In this document: piece after piece, positions 538 through 36,541 of the stretch
Position numbering within the stretch: the first letter of the stretch is position 1
How the letters are laid out: each line of letters begins with the position of its first letter
Origin: Candidatus Coprenecus pullistercoris
GTDB lineage: Bacteria > Bacteroidota > Bacteroidia > Bacteroidales > UBA932
Length of the DNA stretch: 36,794 bases
Direction of reading: 5' to 3'
NCBI GenBank assembly: GCA_019116965.1
Contig: DXAT01000006.1
Location: 1 to 36,794, forward strand
Translations under genes and position numbers: made by a program
Notes under the pieces: model-generated
Database searches by the model: none
What the model saw: only the letters and a program-made list of their open reading frames with translations
Told to the model about the DNA's origin: nothing

Positions 538-573
538 CATAAAATCGGAAAGTTAGAGAGTCATTTCATATTC

Positions 574-606
574 TTGTTACAATTTTGTAATATTTTTGTA
601 ACATTG
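574..606 (+). promoter_or_regulatory. Putative PhoB box, three 11-nt direct repeats
   Basis: Three units in exact 11-nt phase: TTGTTAC+AATT (574-584), TTGTAAT+ATTT (585-595) and TTGTAAC+ATTG (596-606). Known E. coli PhoB boxes are head-to-tail repeats of CTGTCAT or TTGTCAC, also with an 11-nt step, and sit where the upstream core element would be. Here the array ends 6 nt before the -7 box at 613-620, and the operon downstream encodes a phosphate transporter and a PhoB-like regulator. PhoB binding is inference. The array could also affect the divergent SDR gene. Confidence 0.6.
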
Positions 607-612
607 CAGGAA

Positions 613-620
613 TACTTTTG
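613..620 (+). promoter_or_regulatory. -7 box of the pit operon
   Basis: TACTTTTG followed by C fits TAnnTTTG. There is no TTG at the preferred 19-21 bp upstream. That area is filled by the direct repeats at 574-606, as expected of an activator-dependent promoter. The leader before the ATG at 643 would be about 15 nt. Confidence 0.5.
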
Positions 621-2929: not shown

Positions 2930-2937
2930 TATATTTG
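2930..2937 (+). promoter_or_regulatory. -7-like box directly before the response regulator
   Basis: TATATTTG followed by C matches TAnnTTTG and lies only 3 nt before the ATG at 2941. No TTG is seen about 20 bp upstream. If used, it would give a leaderless transcript. It may simply be chance in an AT-rich gap. Confidence 0.3.
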
Positions 2938-2940
2938 CGT

Positions 2941-3657
2941 ATGCAAAAGATATTGATAGTCGATGACGAGGAGTCAATCTGTGAGATTCTCCAGTTCAAT
3001 CTCGAGGTCGAGGGTTACGAGGTGGAAGTAGCCTACAGTGCGGAGGAGGCCCTCGGCAAGGATATAAAAAGCTTCTCCCTCATCTTGCTGGATATCATGA
3101 TGGGAGGGATGAGCGGGTTCAAGATGGCCCAGATGCTGAAAAAGGATCCGGATACGGCTTCTATCCCGATTATCTTCTGTACAGCGAAGGATACGGAGGA
3201 CAATAAGATAGCGGGTCTTACTCTCGGCGCGGACGATTATATATCGAAACCATTCTCGGTGCGGGAGGTTGTGGCCAGGGTCAAGAGCGTGCTGCGCCGT
3301 TGTGACCGGCAGCCCCGACCTGGGGTACAGATGCAGGAGTCCTCGTCCAGGACTGAAATGGACGGAGACAGCATCACTTACAATGGCCTGCGTCTGGATT
3401 TACTCAAGCACAAGTGCTATATCGACGGACAGGAGGTGCAGCTCACCAAGAAGGAGATGGAGATTATGGTGCTCTTCCTGCGCAACTCCGGCAGGGTGCT
3501 TTCCCGTGAGGAGATTCTGCACAATGTCTGGAGCGATGAGGTGGTGGTCCTGGACCGTACCATAGATGTGAATATCACCCGCCTGCGCAAGAAGATAGGC
3601 GAGTACGGCAAGTTTATCGTCACCCGTCAGGGCTACGGTTACGGATTTGACGTATAA
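2941..3657 (+). CDS. PhoB-like response regulator (OmpR/PhoB family)
   Basis: This two-component transcription factor has 238 residues. The receiver domain (about 1-120) has the acidic pair D8-D9, phospho-acceptor D51 (LILLDIMM), T81 and K103. The winged-helix DNA-binding domain (about 145-238) ends with the typical wing GYGYGFDV. The ATG at 2941 gives the canonical MQKILIVDDEES start; an in-frame TTG at 2935 is less likely. It lies between the phosphate transporter (21 bp) and the kinase gene (5 bp), so a PhoB role is the natural reading. 11-nt direct repeats like PhoB boxes occur before this operon, before ppk, and before the TonB-receptor operon. The family is certain; the phosphate assignment is inferred from context. 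Confidence 0.93.
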   Translation: MQKILIVDDEESICEILQFNLEVEGYEVEVAYSAEEALGKDIKSFSLILLDIMMGGMSGFKMAQMLKKDPDTASIPIIFCTAKDTEDNKIAGLTLGADDYISKPFSVREVVARVKSVLRRCDRQPRPGVQMQESSSRTEMDGDSITYNGLRLDLLKHKCYIDGQEVQLTKKEMEIMVLFLRNSGRVLSREEILHNVWSDEVVVLDRTIDVNITRLRKKIGEYGKFIVTRQGYGYGFDV

Positions 3658-3662
3658 GGGTT

Positions 3663-4625
3663 ATGTTTAAGGACCTTTTCTATAGAAAAAGTATTTTAGC
3701 CCGCCTGGAGGAGTTCGTCTATATGGCGGAGAAAGGCAATCCTCTTGACAAGTCATTCCCGTCTTTCCCCGACACGAGGGAGGGCCGTCTGCTCAACCGT
3801 CTGGTACGGGTATATACCAGGGATATGTCAGACAGGGACACGCTTTCGGCTGCCAGGGAGCTTGTGGTGCGCGAGTCTCAGGACAATATCCGTCAGAAAA
3901 AGCAGCTTACACAGAATATCAGCCATGAGCTGAAGACTCCGGTCAGCAGCATCAACGGCTATCTGGAGACTATCATCAACAACCCTGCGCTCAGTACGCC
4001 CCAAAAGGAGATGTTCTTGCACAAGTGCTACGAGCAGTCCCAGCGTCTGTCCAACTTGCTGACGGACCTGTCTACCATTACGCGTATGGACGAGGCCAGT
4101 GACAAGATAGAGAAAGAGAGACTGTCGCTTTCCGATGTGGTCGCTGAGGCTGTGTCCGATATGGCTCCTGTGGCCGGCAAGTACGATACTGATTCAGGAG
4201 AGGAGTACAAGACCGGTCCTTCGGACAGAAGCACTATGAGGATAGTCAATGATTTCCCGGAAGGGAAAGAAATCGTGGGCAACCGCAACCTGCTATACTC
4301 TGTCTTCCGCAACCTGTTGGAAAATGCCATTTTCTATTCCAAGGGCACTGCTGTCACAGTCTCTCTGGACAAGGAGGACGGATGGCAGTACTGGGTATCG
4401 GTGGAAGATGACGGTGTGGGCGTGGACAGTGTGCATCTGACCCGTATATTCGAGCGTTTCTACCGGGTGGACAAGGGCCGCAGCCGCAAGATAGGCGGGA
4501 CCGGACTGGGACTTTCGATAGTCAAGAATGCCGTCAATCTGCATGGCGGCAGCATCAGGGCCGTATCGGCCAAGCCCTCTGGACTCAGGTTCGAGTTCAC
4601 TCTGAGCAAGGAAGGATTAGAATAA
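3663..4625 (+). CDS. Soluble sensor histidine kinase (PhoR-like catalytic core)
   Basis: This is the partner kinase of the preceding regulator, 320 residues. The phospho-acceptor is H88 in NISHELKTP. The ATPase domain shows the N box (RNLLENA, N217/N221), G1 (DDGVGVD, 249-255), F box (FERFYRVD) and G2 (GGTGLGLSI, 278-286). Usual PhoR-type kinases have membrane segments and often a PAS or HAMP domain. Here the first 80 residues are charged, with no membrane segment or recognisable sensor, so the protein looks cytoplasmic. The start is fixed by the 5-nt gap after the regulator. Its input must come from a partner protein; the adjacent Pit tail is a candidate (inference). Its 3' end overlaps convergent rnhB by 9 bp. 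Confidence 0.92.
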   Translation: MFKDLFYRKSILARLEEFVYMAEKGNPLDKSFPSFPDTREGRLLNRLVRVYTRDMSDRDTLSAARELVVRESQDNIRQKKQLTQNISHELKTPVSSINGYLETIINNPALSTPQKEMFLHKCYEQSQRLSNLLTDLSTITRMDEASDKIEKERLSLSDVVAEAVSDMAPVAGKYDTDSGEEYKTGPSDRSTMRIVNDFPEGKEIVGNRNLLYSVFRNLLENAIFYSKGTAVTVSLDKEDGWQYWVSVEDDGVGVDSVHLTRIFERFYRVDKGRSRKIGGTGLGLSIVKNAVNLHGGSIRAVSAKPSGLRFEFTLSKEGLE

Positions 4626-14120: not shown

Positions 14121-14142
14121 TTGTCATAATAATGTAACAATT
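14121..14142 (+). promoter_or_regulatory. Putative PhoB box before ppk
   Basis: Two direct units 11 nt apart: TTGTCAT+AATA (14121-14131) and ATGTAAC+AATT (14132-14142). The first equals a classical PhoB-box unit and the second occurs again before the TonB-receptor operon. The array ends 6 nt before a degenerate -7 box, TAACTTGC (14149-14156), the same offset as at the pit promoter. PhoB control is inference. Confidence 0.55.
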
Positions 14143-14172
14143 AATATCTAACTTGCGGCAAATTCGACAATT

Positions 14173-28371: not shown

Positions 28372-29571
28372 TTACAGTGCCCAGCCTTCTGTCCAGTCGT
28401 TGTCGGCCGAGATGGCGCCTATGAAGGAGGCGCTCTCGAAGAAGGAACCGAGGCCTGTGGCGTCGAAACCTCCGGAGATGGTTCCGAAGTAGTTGTCGGT
28501 CAGACTGAATGTATATCCGGTCTCGTTGTGATTGTCAGCGGCGAGGAAGTCTTCCTCGGTGTAGAGAACCTCGTCGCTGTCACTTGTAACATTCGTGGAG
28601 AGGTATATATACTGGAGCTTGGAAGTGCCGTCGGCCAGAGCGGACTCGGTGCCTTCGGTCTCTGTGGTCAGGGCACGGGTCTTTCCGGTTACTATGGCAT
28701 TGTAGATTTCGGCCTGTGTGCCGGCACGCAGGCGTACTCCGCGCTCGCTCTCACCGTTGTTGCCCACGAGGGTGAGGTTGGAGAGTACAGGATGGGATAT
28801 GGGGGAGGCCATGTTGTCGTTGTCGTTGTTGTCGGCCTCGATGAGGCAGTCGCATTCTGAGGATATCTGATGCGCGATCATGAACTGGCCGTTACCGCAC
28901 CATCCCTCAGTCCAGTCGAAGGAGTCGTCGGTGTTGTCGGTGGAAACGAGATATTTTACATTCACTGTGCCGCCGAACCACTCGAATCCGTCATCGGATC
29001 CTCCGTAAGCCTGGAGGTGATCGACAGTCGTGCCGTTACCTACACCGTAGAAAGTAAAGCCGTTGGCTTCTTTTTCCTCGGAGAAGGCATATCCGCCGTA
29101 CTCGACACGGATGTACTGGAGTGTACCGGAATTGTCGGCAGGATCGTTTCCTCCGTAGGATGCGTCACCTATCTCTGACTTGGCGTCTGTTCCGGCATTG
29201 ATGGGGGCCTTGCCGCATATATGGAGACCGCCCCACGCACCGGCTTCCTTTCTGGTGGAGGTCATCACGATGGGTGCGTCGGCTGTACCGCGGGCGTCGA
29301 TTCTGGCACCCTGCTCGATGAGTATATAGTCCACCTGGTCGTCATCCTGGGCGATGATGGTCACACCCGGCTCGATGGTCAGTGTAGCGCCTGCCTTTAC
29401 ATGCAGACCTCCCGTGAGAGTGTAGGTCTGACCCTGCTCAAGTGTCCTGTCCTCGGTGATGTCGCCTATGAGGTCAACATCTGAATCGATAACATTGCTG
29501 TTGTTGTCCTTTTCGCAGGATACGGCCATGACGGCTGCGCTGAGTGCGAGAAATAAAAGATTTTTTTTCAT
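28372..29571 (-). CDS. Surface lipoprotein with right-handed beta-helix-like repeats
   Basis: A 399-residue lipoprotein with lipobox AVSC (Cys19); the following EKDNN is acidic, as in Bacteroidota surface-export signals. Residues about 45-130 start a parallel beta-helix-like fold (YTLTGGLHVKAGATLTIEPG, then IDARGTADAPIVMTS), continuing with GGSDDGFEWFGGTVNVKYLV and DNTDDSFDWTEGW. Many Asp/Asn/Gly turns could bind cations. No polysaccharide-lyase catalytic motif is recognisable. It follows the TonB-dependent receptor by 39 bp and is probably its surface partner, in the way SusD-like proteins serve SusC, though it is not SusD-like. The repeats upstream of the operon suggest phosphate control (inference). 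Confidence 0.85.
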   Translation of the reverse strand: MKKNLLFLALSAAVMAVSCEKDNNSNVIDSDVDLIGDITEDRTLEQGQTYTLTGGLHVKAGATLTIEPGVTIIAQDDDQVDYILIEQGARIDARGTADAPIVMTSTRKEAGAWGGLHICGKAPINAGTDAKSEIGDASYGGNDPADNSGTLQYIRVEYGGYAFSEEKEANGFTFYGVGNGTTVDHLQAYGGSDDGFEWFGGTVNVKYLVSTDNTDDSFDWTEGWCGNGQFMIAHQISSECDCLIEADNNDNDNMASPISHPVLSNLTLVGNNGESERGVRLRAGTQAEIYNAIVTGKTRALTTETEGTESALADGTSKLQYIYLSTNVTSDSDEVLYTEEDFLAADNHNETGYTFSLTDNYFGTISGGFDATGLGSFFESASFIGAISADNDWTEGWAL

Positions 29572-29610: not shown

Positions 29611-32343
29611 TTAAAAATCCAGTTTTACTCCTATCCCTATGCCTCTTCCGAGCCGGTAGCTTTCTGTAAGCATGTCCTTTCCGAGGTCAGGTACATTTTG
29701 GGAGAAACGGTATTCGGAGTCGAGTAGATTGGTCATCGAGAGCTGTATGCTCCACAGCCGGTTGATCTGGTATGTGATGTTGGCGTCGATGGTGTGGATC
29801 GGAGCCTGCATGATGTTTCCGAGCCCGTAGATGCCCACTGCCTGGATTCTGGGGCCCTGGACATTGTATAGTACGGATATGGCCAGGGAAGATTCCTCGC
29901 CGAATTCTGGAGCGTAGGTGATGAAAGCGTTGCCGACATAGGGGGATGCACCCTGAAGGGCCCTGCGGCTGTCGGTGTAGATACCGCCGTCCAGAAGGGT
30001 AACATCGGTGTACATCAGGGAAATATTGCCGCCGATGGTGAAGTATCTGAAAGGTGTTGTGCGGAACTCCGCCTTAAGTCCTGCGGCCATTCCCTGCTGT
30101 GCATTTCTGAAGGTGTGTACTATGGCTCCGCCGGAAGTCTCCTGCACCCGTTCGATAGGATCCTTGAGGATCTTGTAGTAAGCGCCTACGGAGAACATGT
30201 GCTTGTTGTTTGTGGAGAAGTATTCGTATTTAAGGTCGAAGTTGTAGTTGTAGCCGTTGGTCAGCTGGTCATTACCTCGTATCTCCGCACTTCCGTAGGA
30301 CTCCTTGTAAAGGAAAGGGGCCATCTCTATGAATGAGGGGCGGGTCACGGTGATGGAGGAGGCGAAACGGAAGTTGTGACGGTTATTGAGGGTATACTTG
30401 ATGTTGAGGGCAGGGAAGAAATCTCCTTTGTCAAGGCGTGAGACATTTTCTCTGGAAGCGTCATTCCAGTACCTGACCCATTGCTGTGAGTATTCGTAGC
30501 GGACTCCGAGACTCAGCAGGAGCTGATCGACGGGATAGTACTCCACTTCTGCGAATCCCGCGAGAATCCTGTGTCCGGCGTAGTAGTTGTTTTTGGGCTG
30601 TGCGTCCCTTTCTATCTTTATCAGACCGTCGGCTATGCTCTGTTGGTTTATGAAAGATGACGGAGTGTAGATGTCGCTTATGACCGGATTGATGTCGCTC
30701 AGATTGTAGTAGAATCGGAGCGAGTTGTAATCGCGGGTCTTGTCCTTGTAGGCGGCTCCGAAAATCAGCTTGCTGTTATTGTCTCCGAAACTGAAAGTGG
30801 GTTTGATCTCTGCCACTACTTCCTGTTCGGCGAGTTCTCCGTAGTATCTCATGGTCTCCTGACGGTTGAGCTTGAACAGGGAAAGGGAACCGTCCTGACC
30901 CCTGCGGTACATCACCTGACGGCGGTCAGGCTCGTTGCTGTCAGTCATGCCGTATGATACTTTCCAGTCTATGTTCCATTTGGGATGCAGGGTGTGCGAT
31001 CCACCTAATTGGTTGTTCCACAAGGAATATGAGTGGGCAATGGAGTTGCTTCCGAGGAGCTGGTTATCCTCTGCGTCATAACCTTCGCGGAGTTTGTAGT
31101 CCTCCATTGCGTTCTTGGCGTAAAGCATGGTGAAGCCTATCTTGTCTCCGTTCTTGAAGAGATAGTTGAGACTCAGCAGGCCGGTCAGGTCCAGGCTGTG
31201 TTCGTATCCGTTGTAGTGGAACTCGTCCATATGCTGGCCCTGGGTGTTGATGTTGGTGATGTATGCGTCATAGATGTTCTGACTTCCGCTGGAGATGGAT
31301 GCCGATGCCAGCAGGCTCAGCTCGTCACCGTTGCGGAGCTGGAATGTGCGGCCTCCTGATACCGAGCCCGAGATGTCCGGTATGGCCATCGACTTGCTGA
31401 TGTCGAATGTGGTTCCGAACGGGTCGTTATTTACGATGTAGGTTCTGAAGTCGGACAGGCTCATGTTTCTGACATTGCCGGGAATATTGTTGTCGTGCAG
31501 CAGCCAGCCCTTTCTGTCCGGACGATAGGTGTCCTTGAATGTGGTACCGATGATACCATTGAATCCAAGTGATATGGAAAGGAAACTGTCTCCTACATTT
31601 TCCTTGGTGGAGATGTCGATATGGGCTCCGGAGTAGTCGGCGAAGCTGGTGGCTGTATAGACCTTGGTCACCGTTATGTCCTGAAGCACCGAACTTGAGA
31701 AGATATCCAGCGGTATCAGCTTGTTGTCTGGATTGGGGGAGGCTACTGGCAGACCGTTCAGGGTGGTCAGGCTGTAGCGGTCGCCGAGCCCGCGCACGAA
31801 GAGCTGGCCGGAGTTGTTGAACGATACTCCGCTCATGGTCTCCACGGCTTCCTCTACATTGGAGAGGCCCTTGATCCGGATTTCGGAAGCACCGATGTTC
31901 TCGACAGCCTGGGCCGAGACTTTCCTGTCATTGATCAGGGCACCTGTGGATCCGGGGTCTTTTCTTGCGATGACTGTTACGCCCTCCAGTACTTCCGACT
32001 GAAGCTCCATGCTGAAATCCATGGTCCTCTCTTCTCCTTTCTTAAGTATGATAACCTCTGACTTGAGATCATTGTAACCTATAAGGTAGAGACCAAGCAC
32101 ACCCTCGGCTCCTTCCGGGATCGTGATGGTGTAGCTTCCGTCCACCTCGGTCTGTACTCCTGTCATGCCTGAGCCGGCTCCATCCTGGATGCGTTCAAAC
32201 ATGATTACGACACCGGGCAGGGTCTCTGAAGTCGCCGCGTCTCGGACGACACCCCTGATGGTCTGCGCGTAAAGATTCCCGCAATGGAGGGATGCGGAGG
32301 CGATTAAAATGGAAAAAACTGCTTTTAGAAATCTTTTGCTCAT
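29611..32343 (-). CDS. TonB-dependent outer-membrane receptor
   Basis: A 910-residue receptor. After a signal peptide (about 1-26, ending NLYA) comes a carboxypeptidase-regulatory-like beta-sandwich (about 27-115: GVVRDAATSETLPGVVI), then the plug (about 130-240: IGASEIRIKGLSNVEEAVET, FVRGLGDRYSLTTLNG), then a large beta-barrel ending in the aromatic residue of GVKLDF. It lacks the SusC-type long N-terminal layout and no SusD partner is near. The start at 32343 (MSKRFLKAV) gives a good signal peptide; an in-frame ATG at 32367 lies inside the -7 box. The substrate is unknown. The 60-bp repeat array upstream hints at regulation by the PhoB-like protein. Confidence 0.93.
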   Translation of the reverse strand: MSKRFLKAVFSILIASASLHCGNLYAQTIRGVVRDAATSETLPGVVIMFERIQDGAGSGMTGVQTEVDGSYTITIPEGAEGVLGLYLIGYNDLKSEVIILKKGEERTMDFSMELQSEVLEGVTVIARKDPGSTGALINDRKVSAQAVENIGASEIRIKGLSNVEEAVETMSGVSFNNSGQLFVRGLGDRYSLTTLNGLPVASPNPDNKLIPLDIFSSSVLQDITVTKVYTATSFADYSGAHIDISTKENVGDSFLSISLGFNGIIGTTFKDTYRPDRKGWLLHDNNIPGNVRNMSLSDFRTYIVNNDPFGTTFDISKSMAIPDISGSVSGGRTFQLRNGDELSLLASASISSGSQNIYDAYITNINTQGQHMDEFHYNGYEHSLDLTGLLSLNYLFKNGDKIGFTMLYAKNAMEDYKLREGYDAEDNQLLGSNSIAHSYSLWNNQLGGSHTLHPKWNIDWKVSYGMTDSNEPDRRQVMYRRGQDGSLSLFKLNRQETMRYYGELAEQEVVAEIKPTFSFGDNNSKLIFGAAYKDKTRDYNSLRFYYNLSDINPVISDIYTPSSFINQQSIADGLIKIERDAQPKNNYYAGHRILAGFAEVEYYPVDQLLLSLGVRYEYSQQWVRYWNDASRENVSRLDKGDFFPALNIKYTLNNRHNFRFASSITVTRPSFIEMAPFLYKESYGSAEIRGNDQLTNGYNYNFDLKYEYFSTNNKHMFSVGAYYKILKDPIERVQETSGGAIVHTFRNAQQGMAAGLKAEFRTTPFRYFTIGGNISLMYTDVTLLDGGIYTDSRRALQGASPYVGNAFITYAPEFGEESSLAISVLYNVQGPRIQAVGIYGLGNIMQAPIHTIDANITYQINRLWSIQLSMTNLLDSEYRFSQNVPDLGKDMLTESYRLGRGIGIGVKLDF

Positions 32344-32364: not shown

Positions 32365-32372
32365 CAAAAGTA
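32365..32372 (-). promoter_or_regulatory. -7 box of the TonB-receptor operon
   Basis: Minus strand TACTTTTG followed by CC, the same 8-mer as the pit promoter at 613-620. It is 21 nt before the ATG at 32343. No TTG stands at the -33 position. Direct repeats lie further upstream, as in an activated promoter. Confidence 0.55.
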
Positions 32373-32404
32373 TCGGGACGATATGTCATGGTTGATACGC
32401 GGTG

Positions 32405-32464
32405 GTTAAAATGCTGTTACGCAGGTTACGAACATGTTGCAGAAGTTTCATCCCTGTTACATCA
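32405..32464 (-). repeat. Three 20-bp direct repeats, each with two half-sites 11 nt apart
   Basis: On the plus strand GTT begins at 32405, 32416, 32425, 32436, 32445 and 32456, so steps are 11, 9, 11, 9, 11. On the minus (coding) strand of the receptor operon the half-sites read ATGTAAC, ATGAAAC, CTGCAAC, TCGTAAC, GCGTAAC and TTTTAAC, resembling the units before pit and ppk; ATGTAAC is identical to the ppk one. The array ends 32 bp before the -7 box. It lies in the 220-bp gap divergent to the GH20 gene and could affect both. PhoB as the binder is inference. Confidence 0.65.
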
Positions 32465-36506: not shown

Positions 36507-36514
36507 CAAAATTA
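36507..36514 (-). promoter_or_regulatory. -7 box of the metal ATPase gene
   Basis: Minus strand TAATTTTG, matching TAnnTTTG, 25 nt before the ATG at 36481. The -33 zone falls in the palindrome at 36527-36541. Confidence 0.55.
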
Positions 36515-36526
36515 CAGAGGACAGGA

Positions 36527-36541
36527 TGCAACCAGGTTTCA
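36527..36541. promoter_or_regulatory. Fur-type 7-1-7 palindrome, site 1
   Basis: TGCAACC-A-GGTTTCA pairs at 6 of 7 arm positions. It has the 7-1-7 layout and TGnAA outer bases typical of Fur-family operators. It overlaps the upstream promoter element of the ATPase gene, so bound protein would block polymerase. Confidence 0.55.

Follow-up and report, generated by a model that had tools for sequence, protein, structure and literature searches.

The promoter of a TonB-dependent receptor/lipoprotein operon in the window (the whole 36,794-nt stretch of Candidatus Coprenecus pullistercoris DNA analysed here) very probably contains an extended Pho box array, that is, an operator for several dimers of the response regulator PhoB. 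Eight half-sites stand in a fixed register upstream of the receptor gene, the array is conserved in the genus, its half-site and promoter geometry are shared with phosphate genes, and a PhoB gene is present; binding, the pairing into dimers, cooperativity, induction and the substrate are what we infer from these features. We propose that phosphate starvation would cause phosphorylated PhoB to bind in head-to-tail dimers, with each dimer covering two half-sites spaced by 11 bp (offsets 20/31, 42/53, 62/73 and 82/93). The nearest pair occupies the place of a -33 element, with 10 bp between it and the -7 box, and would bring in RNA polymerase in the same way as at pit; the three upstream pairs would load cooperatively, making the operon strongly and steeply inducible. 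Its products, an outer-membrane receptor and a surface lipoprotein, may then capture phosphate or organic phosphate.

The receptor is read from the minus strand, and on this coding strand the half-sites are TGTAAC-like. The original prediction had described six GTT half-sites with steps of 11, 9, 11, 9 and 11; direct reading of the plus strand bears this out, with GTT starts at 32405, 32416, 32425, 32436, 32445 and 32456. It had also considered the regularity hard to explain by chance, and a six-copy GTT/AAC chain with such steps indeed occurs once in the window and in 0/100 dinucleotide-preserving shuffles. A wider class, six copies of any trinucleotide with steps a,b,a,b,a (a and b between 8 and 13), gave the same result, one in the window and 0/100 in the shuffles. 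Of the three 20-bp repeats originally proposed, the spacing held and the number of units did not: the array extends beyond 32405 to about 32382, where two further half-sites are found, one of them weak, and the resulting eight are best read as four pairs. With the offset of a half-site counted between the first A of its AAC-like core and the last G of the -7 box, the half-sites before the receptor gene lie at 20, 31, 42, 53, 62, 73, 82 and 93 nt (Table 1), those at 31 and 42 being weak. The 20-mers have little similarity beyond the half-sites (12/20 letters between units 1 and 2, by eye), and the units do not match over their full length as an expanded tandem repeat would. Plain tandem duplication was rejected because it is mainly the half-sites that are conserved. 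A uniform 10-bp, OmpR-like spacing was also tried and rejected, as half-site scores in the window peak at steps of 11 and 9.

Table 1. Features of the array, its operon and the phosphate loci of the window (offset in nt from the -7 box; "kept" refers to the 15 near orthologues)
Feature	Position	Strand	Offset	Sequence	Matrix score	Kept	Remarks
Half-site 8	32455..32461	-	93	TGTAACA	10.4	14/15	
Half-site 7	32444..32450	-	82	TGAAACT	6.7	14/15	11 nt from site 8
Half-site 6	32435..32441	-	73	TGCAACA	6.9	14/15	9 nt from site 7
Half-site 5	32424..32430	-	62	CGTAACC	3.5	15/15	11 nt from site 6
Half-site 4	32415..32421	-	53	CGTAACA	6.4	15/15	9 nt from site 5
Half-site 3	32404..32410	-	42	TTTAACC	2.4	15/15	11 nt from site 4
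Half-site 2	32393..32399	-	31	CGTATCA	1.4	14/15	11 nt from site 3; weak; missed by the original prediction
Half-site 1	32382..32388	-	20	TGACATA	7.6	15/15	11 nt from site 2; missed by the original prediction
-7 box	32365..32372	-		TACTTTTG			Bacteroidetes type TAnnTTTG
TonB-dependent receptor	29611..32343	-					first gene; 910 aa; Pfam domains
Lipoprotein-like protein	28372..29571	-					second gene; predicted beta-helix-type fold (AlphaFold2 model)
pit promoter	564..620	+					half-sites 567, 578, 589, 600 (11-nt steps); -7 box 613-620
PhoB response regulator	2935..3657	+					proposed ligand; NCBIfam NF053854, 345 bits (cut-off 270)
PhoR-like histidine kinase	3663..4625	+					NF053855 positions 354-583 of 583; 302 bits (cut-off 500)
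ppk promoter	14122..14156	+		TAACTTGC (-7-like box)			half-sites 14125, 14136

The array is placed relative to its promoter as a Pho box would be. The sequence TACTTTTG fits TAnnTTTG, the consensus of the Bacteroidetes -7 box; 10 nt separate it from the hexamer of half-site 1, and the same spacing is found in the pit, porin and second-receptor promoters, where the -7 element likewise lies 20 nt from a half-site. The E. coli Pho box is located directly upstream of the -10 element, and here too the box stands just upstream of an element of the -10 type, in the place of a -35 element. Distances of 44 nt at the array and 22 nt at pit had been reported for the nearest half-site, which is right if both ends are counted (42 and 20 nt from the first A of AAC to the last G). 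The doubling had been read as preserving the helical face, but the 44-nt gap contains a weak CGTATC and a TGACAT, and the doubled distance is therefore no empty helical-phase jump. Since the nearest half-site is at offset 20, as in pit, the one formerly regarded as nearest is the third from the promoter. Half-site 1 is kept as TGACAT or TGAAAY in 15/15 near orthologues, the sister clade has TGAAAC or TGAAAT at offset 20, and two of the porin promoters, L113 and L115, have TGACAT at offset 31.

We compared orthologous receptor loci to assess the conservation of the array. Receptor matches were found in 18 of the 19 genomes of the genus; the close relatives that are named in GTDB contigs are Candidatus Coprenecus species and uncultured Bacteroidales. 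The 15 near orthologues are L001 (the window itself), L003-L015 and L017; L016, L018 and L019 (64%, 42% and 42% identity) were left out. Training of a 7-letter half-site matrix was limited to offsets 20 and 31 in the pit, porin-operon, second-receptor-operon and ppk promoters. The ppk box is in this register in 7/15 ppk orthologues, which served as training rows, and outside it in the other 8/15 (L123-L130), which were omitted. With this matrix and these offsets, both chosen after the sequences had been looked at, the top seven positions between offsets 8 and 149 of the window were 93, 20, 73, 82, 53, 62 and 42, and offset 31 ranked ninth (score 1.4). Offset 144 scored 1.6 in the window, above the site at 31, and is not among the best offsets listed for the clade average. 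Averaged over the seven members of the window's clade, the eight best offsets were exactly those of the array. Beyond offset 93 of the window no extension was found, offsets 102, 104 and 113 scoring negative; a weak site is present near 102-103 in some sister-clade members.

Scores above zero were obtained at offsets 20 to 93 in 15, 14, 15, 15, 15, 14, 14 and 14 of the 15 near orthologues, compared with 2.7% of 1365 other positions. The misses were confined to L014 (offset 31), L009 (73) and L003 (82 and 93). Three orthologues with one extra nucleotide upstream of 53 (L008, L010 and L011) were read one nucleotide further out in this tally and were excluded from the following two comparisons, which cover 12 of the 15. 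Permutation of alignment columns 37-100 reached the observed sum over offsets 42-93 in 0/2000 cases, and identity was higher in the half-site core columns than in the spacers (0.91 versus 0.76, p 2e-5). The array, whose 11/9 pattern the original prediction had asked to be sought before orthologous receptors on the understanding that a lack of conservation would speak against it, is conserved in the genus. A chance regularity, in favor of which nothing was found, has next to no standing as an explanation in view of this conservation and of the 0/100 and 0/300 shuffles. The array also lies between the receptor and a divergent GH20 hexosaminidase gene (32549, plus strand), and by position alone it might serve the latter in place of the receptor. 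We regard this as very improbable: the half-sites are phased with the receptor's -7 box, and orthologue sequences beyond the array differ (by eye) while the array itself stays.

Chains of half-sites were scored across the whole window. The best was the array (45.3, 8 sites), followed by pit at 31.6 and ppk at 19.1, against a maximum of 26.1 in 60 shuffles; by this test ppk alone is therefore not beyond chance, and a fifth member of the pit chain, at 611, is probably spurious. The pit promoter, which is probably also that of phoBR, has TGTAAC at offset 20, TGTAAT at 31, TGTTAC at 42 and a weaker half-site at 53. The resemblance to pit and ppk half-sites, noted from the outset, is real and extends to two more phosphate-type operons of the same genome. 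The exact sharing of ATGTAAC applies to ppk and not to pit, which has TTGTAAC. The genome was scanned for two half-sites plus a -7 box with at most three mismatches, yielding 21 matches versus 10 for the reversed pattern, so that many of the weak matches are noise. The best match was pit, without mismatches, followed with one mismatch each by an operon for a second receptor, a beta-helix lipoprotein and a metallophosphoesterase and by one for a phosphate-selective porin, a lamin-tail protein and a metallophosphoesterase. Two mismatches were found in a site that falls within a coding frame of contig C17, in a second register of the pit region and in ppk. The array promoter has three mismatches in this narrow two-site pattern and is one of 15 at that level; because 14 other matches equal it, the narrow scan alone would not single it out. 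In the second-receptor operon (L085 4217-9429) the mean of 12 orthologues has sites at 20, 31, 64 and 75, all separated by multiples of 11 nt. A PhoU-like domain was not found by Pfam in the C-terminal portion of pit, and the pit matches in L105 and L106 (genomes G018 and G004) carry one internal stop codon each.

The proposed ligand is encoded in the genome, by a gene adjoining pit. Its DNA-binding domain is closest in the PDB to that of E. coli PhoB, the best full-length match being RegX3. The neighboring PhoR-like kinase is without the N-terminal sensor half of its family; in L096, L103, L105 and L106, from the same genus, the stretch upstream of the HisKA motif is similarly short. Six genomes of a further genus, g21 (L073-L078), have the receptor gene in divergent orientation to a PhoB-like gene, and the frame after this PhoB-like gene, with a hydrophobic N-terminus, is probably phoR. 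Two contigs of the genome analysed here each carry a response regulator/histidine kinase pair (L086 and L087); the pairs are nearly identical, the result of a recent duplication or of an assembly effect.

Four OmpR-type DNA-binding domains are encoded in the genome, and the array could in principle bind one of the other three, an RprY-like or RppA-like regulator, instead of PhoB. Half-sites are alike within the family, and the DAP-seq motif TTTAACA of the Riemerella regulator PhoP, given in the part of PMC9603813 considered here, is close to site 3. Three of the four proteins were scanned, of which only that of the window satisfies the Bacteroidetes PhoB model, and the fourth is nearly identical to one of the two that do not. 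Similar sites with an equal distance to the -7 box precede pit, the phosphate porin operon and the second receptor/phosphoesterase operon. Moreover, by pattern match a PhoB-signature frame lies within 1.5 kb of pit in 19/19 pit loci of the genus, so that the pit box is probably autoregulatory. We therefore judge a different OmpR-type ligand improbable.

Somewhat less remote, though still unlikely, is that PhoB is the ligand and only the proximal sites (20/31, perhaps 42/53) act, the 11/9 part being a relic or a by-product of tandem duplication; this is a version of the multi-dimer reading, and the probabilities of the two overlap. No more than four sites, spaced at 11 nt, are present at pit and at the porin operon. 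The closest relative, L003 (89% receptor identity), has a shorter array without sites 82 and 93, and site number therefore changes between close species. Against a purely proximal function, the distal sites are kept in 14/15 orthologues, the core columns are more conserved than the spacers, and in genus g22 it is the upstream sites that are strong, sites 20 and 31 being weak or missing.

The multi-dimer operator thus remains our preferred reading, and its spacing was followed across lineages. A Pho box is defined as two direct-repeat units 11 nt apart, with about seven conserved positions each (PMC4415409, in part). The step inside each of the four pairs is 11 nt and agrees with this definition. 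Successive boxes do not hold an 11-nt register throughout: the step from 31 to 42 is 11, but those from 53 to 62 and from 73 to 82 are 9. Tandem boxes in E. coli keep 11, which may or may not be part of what defines them. Upstream pairs are joined by linkers of 9 nt in the window and in the orthologues that align without gaps; L008, L010 and L011 have 10 nt in the first of these linkers (53 to 63) and 9 nt in the second. Genus g22 has an 11/10 alternation in L140 (seven sites, offsets 53 to 116) and L142 (five sites) and partial 11/10 versions in L132, L136 and L141; L135 has it as well, with a score no better than shuffles (134/300). An upstream linker of 11 is found in L016 (64, 75), in L070 and L071 with weak scores, and in the second-receptor promoters (64, 75). 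The 20/31/42/53 core is shared by L133, L138 and L139, offset 42 of L138 being under the listing threshold.

A set of 26 more distant receptor upstream regions comprised L016, L018 and 24 of the 26 matching genomes outside the genus (G086, at a contig end, G148 and, inside the genus, L019 were left out). Eighteen of them beat all but at most 3/300 shuffles and eight are without a strong chain; many are close relatives of one another and hence not independent. The last site of the chain lies 20 nt from a -7-type box in 13/26, and in L133 in addition. The mean half-site step is 10.43 in the window (73/7) and 10.5 in L140 (63/6).

These series are most simply explained by dimers with an internal spacing of 11 bp that are connected by flexible linkers. 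A more specific version, which we hold tentatively and would rate a little short of even, is a phase-corrected Pho operator, in which 11-bp dimers would be joined by a linker set in each lineage to 9, 10 or 11 bp; in the window and in L140 the resulting mean steps of 10.43 and 10.5 bp would keep a long row of dimers on one helix face. The wing residue of PhoB aligned with an arginine of the E. coli protein, presumably Arg219 in its numbering, is Gln in this genus and Leu in g21. In E. coli PhoB, Arg219 inserts into the minor groove, in association with a bend of 40 degrees (PMC3264566, in part). It is perhaps the absence of this bend-linked arginine from the wing in the genus that makes phase correction possible, a suggestion that is speculation. 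With its unequal 11/9 steps, the array appears to represent a lineage-specific version of a known type of bacterial switch.

In the receptor encoded by the operon, OMP_b-brl_3, TonB_dep_Rec_b-barrel and Plug exceed the Pfam cut-offs and CarbopepD_reg_2 falls just under (30.4 bits, cut-off 32.2). The second gene had no Pfam or NCBIfam match; its AlphaFold2 model is mostly beta (pLDDT 81, pTM 0.83), with weak Foldseek matches, none at E <= 0.001, that are mostly to beta-helix proteins, the best being tailspikes, pectate lyases and epimerases. The portion of PMC8115612 considered here describes, in an operon entry together with phoBR of F. johnsoniae, a receptor, Fjoh_0545 (Plug, CarbopepD_reg_2, OMP_b-brl_3), and a lipoprotein, FII, Fjoh_0546 (IPR011050), with increases of log2 8.02 and 9.91, respectively, when phosphate is depleted; the paper relates FII to a lipoprotein of Caulobacter. 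ElpS of Caulobacter, a surface lipoprotein that rises in phosphate starvation, is encoded by a gene found together with one for a TonB receptor, and the ElpS-linked receptor cc0171 is reported as constitutive (PMC2996285, in part). Like F. johnsoniae PUSIV and Caulobacter ElpS, the window combines a receptor with a lipoprotein of predicted pectin-lyase-type fold, a homology to PUSIV suggested by domains, predicted fold and gene order; the word "promoter" is absent from PMC8115612. On the best reading of the sequence, the operon would belong to the Pho regulon as a receptor/lipoprotein operon.

Among known operators, the array is most readily compared with the Pho box and tandem boxes of E. coli, with which it shares head-to-tail half-sites, 11-nt steps within the pair and a TGTCAT-like half-site (TGTCAT itself occurs before ppk, TGACAT in the array). 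It differs from them in having four pairs with two inter-pair steps of 9 instead of 11, a Bacteroidetes -7 box, and a PhoB with Gln in the wing in place of arginine. OmpR half-sites are about 10 bp apart, and the F1-F2-F3 sites of ompF form a row of three 20-bp units that each contain two half-sites in tandem. The array departs from the OmpR F and C sites in its steps of 11 and 9, which do not follow a 10-bp spacing, and in half-sites shared with phosphate genes; 10-nt steps like those of OmpR sites do occur between pairs in L008, L010, L011 and genus g22. More than two direct repeats are also found in the complex operators of Streptomyces PhoP, where their number and organisation vary by promoter (PMC4415409, in part), and in E. 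coli ArcA sites, which often have three to five repeats with steps mainly of 11 or 22, a third repeat at a 12-bp step giving no protection (PMC3798270, in part). An alternating 11/9 operator is described in neither paper, as far as the parts considered extend, and none is announced in open-access titles or abstract openings; the same titles and abstract openings announce no mapped Bacteroidetes Pho box.

PhoB of gut Bacteroidales is already known genetically. In B. fragilis it binds the pstC promoter, as seen by mobility shift of a 512-bp fragment only, and the phosphate/sulphate permease BF3715 is listed with the entry -52.2 in a transcriptome table (PMC3547664, in part). If Riemerella PhoP is a PhoB orthologue, a related Bacteroidetes motif is already in print. 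A concrete, testable definition is given by the half-site TGTMAY/TGAMAY, its pairing at 11 bp and a constant distance of 20 nt to the -7 box, and the series of 9-, 10- and 11-bp linkers offers a natural test of the packing of OmpR-family dimers on DNA. Positions 36507-36541 of the window and G000:C8:97-131 are 35-mers that differ by one letter, both near a contig end, possibly a repeat at which the assembly broke.
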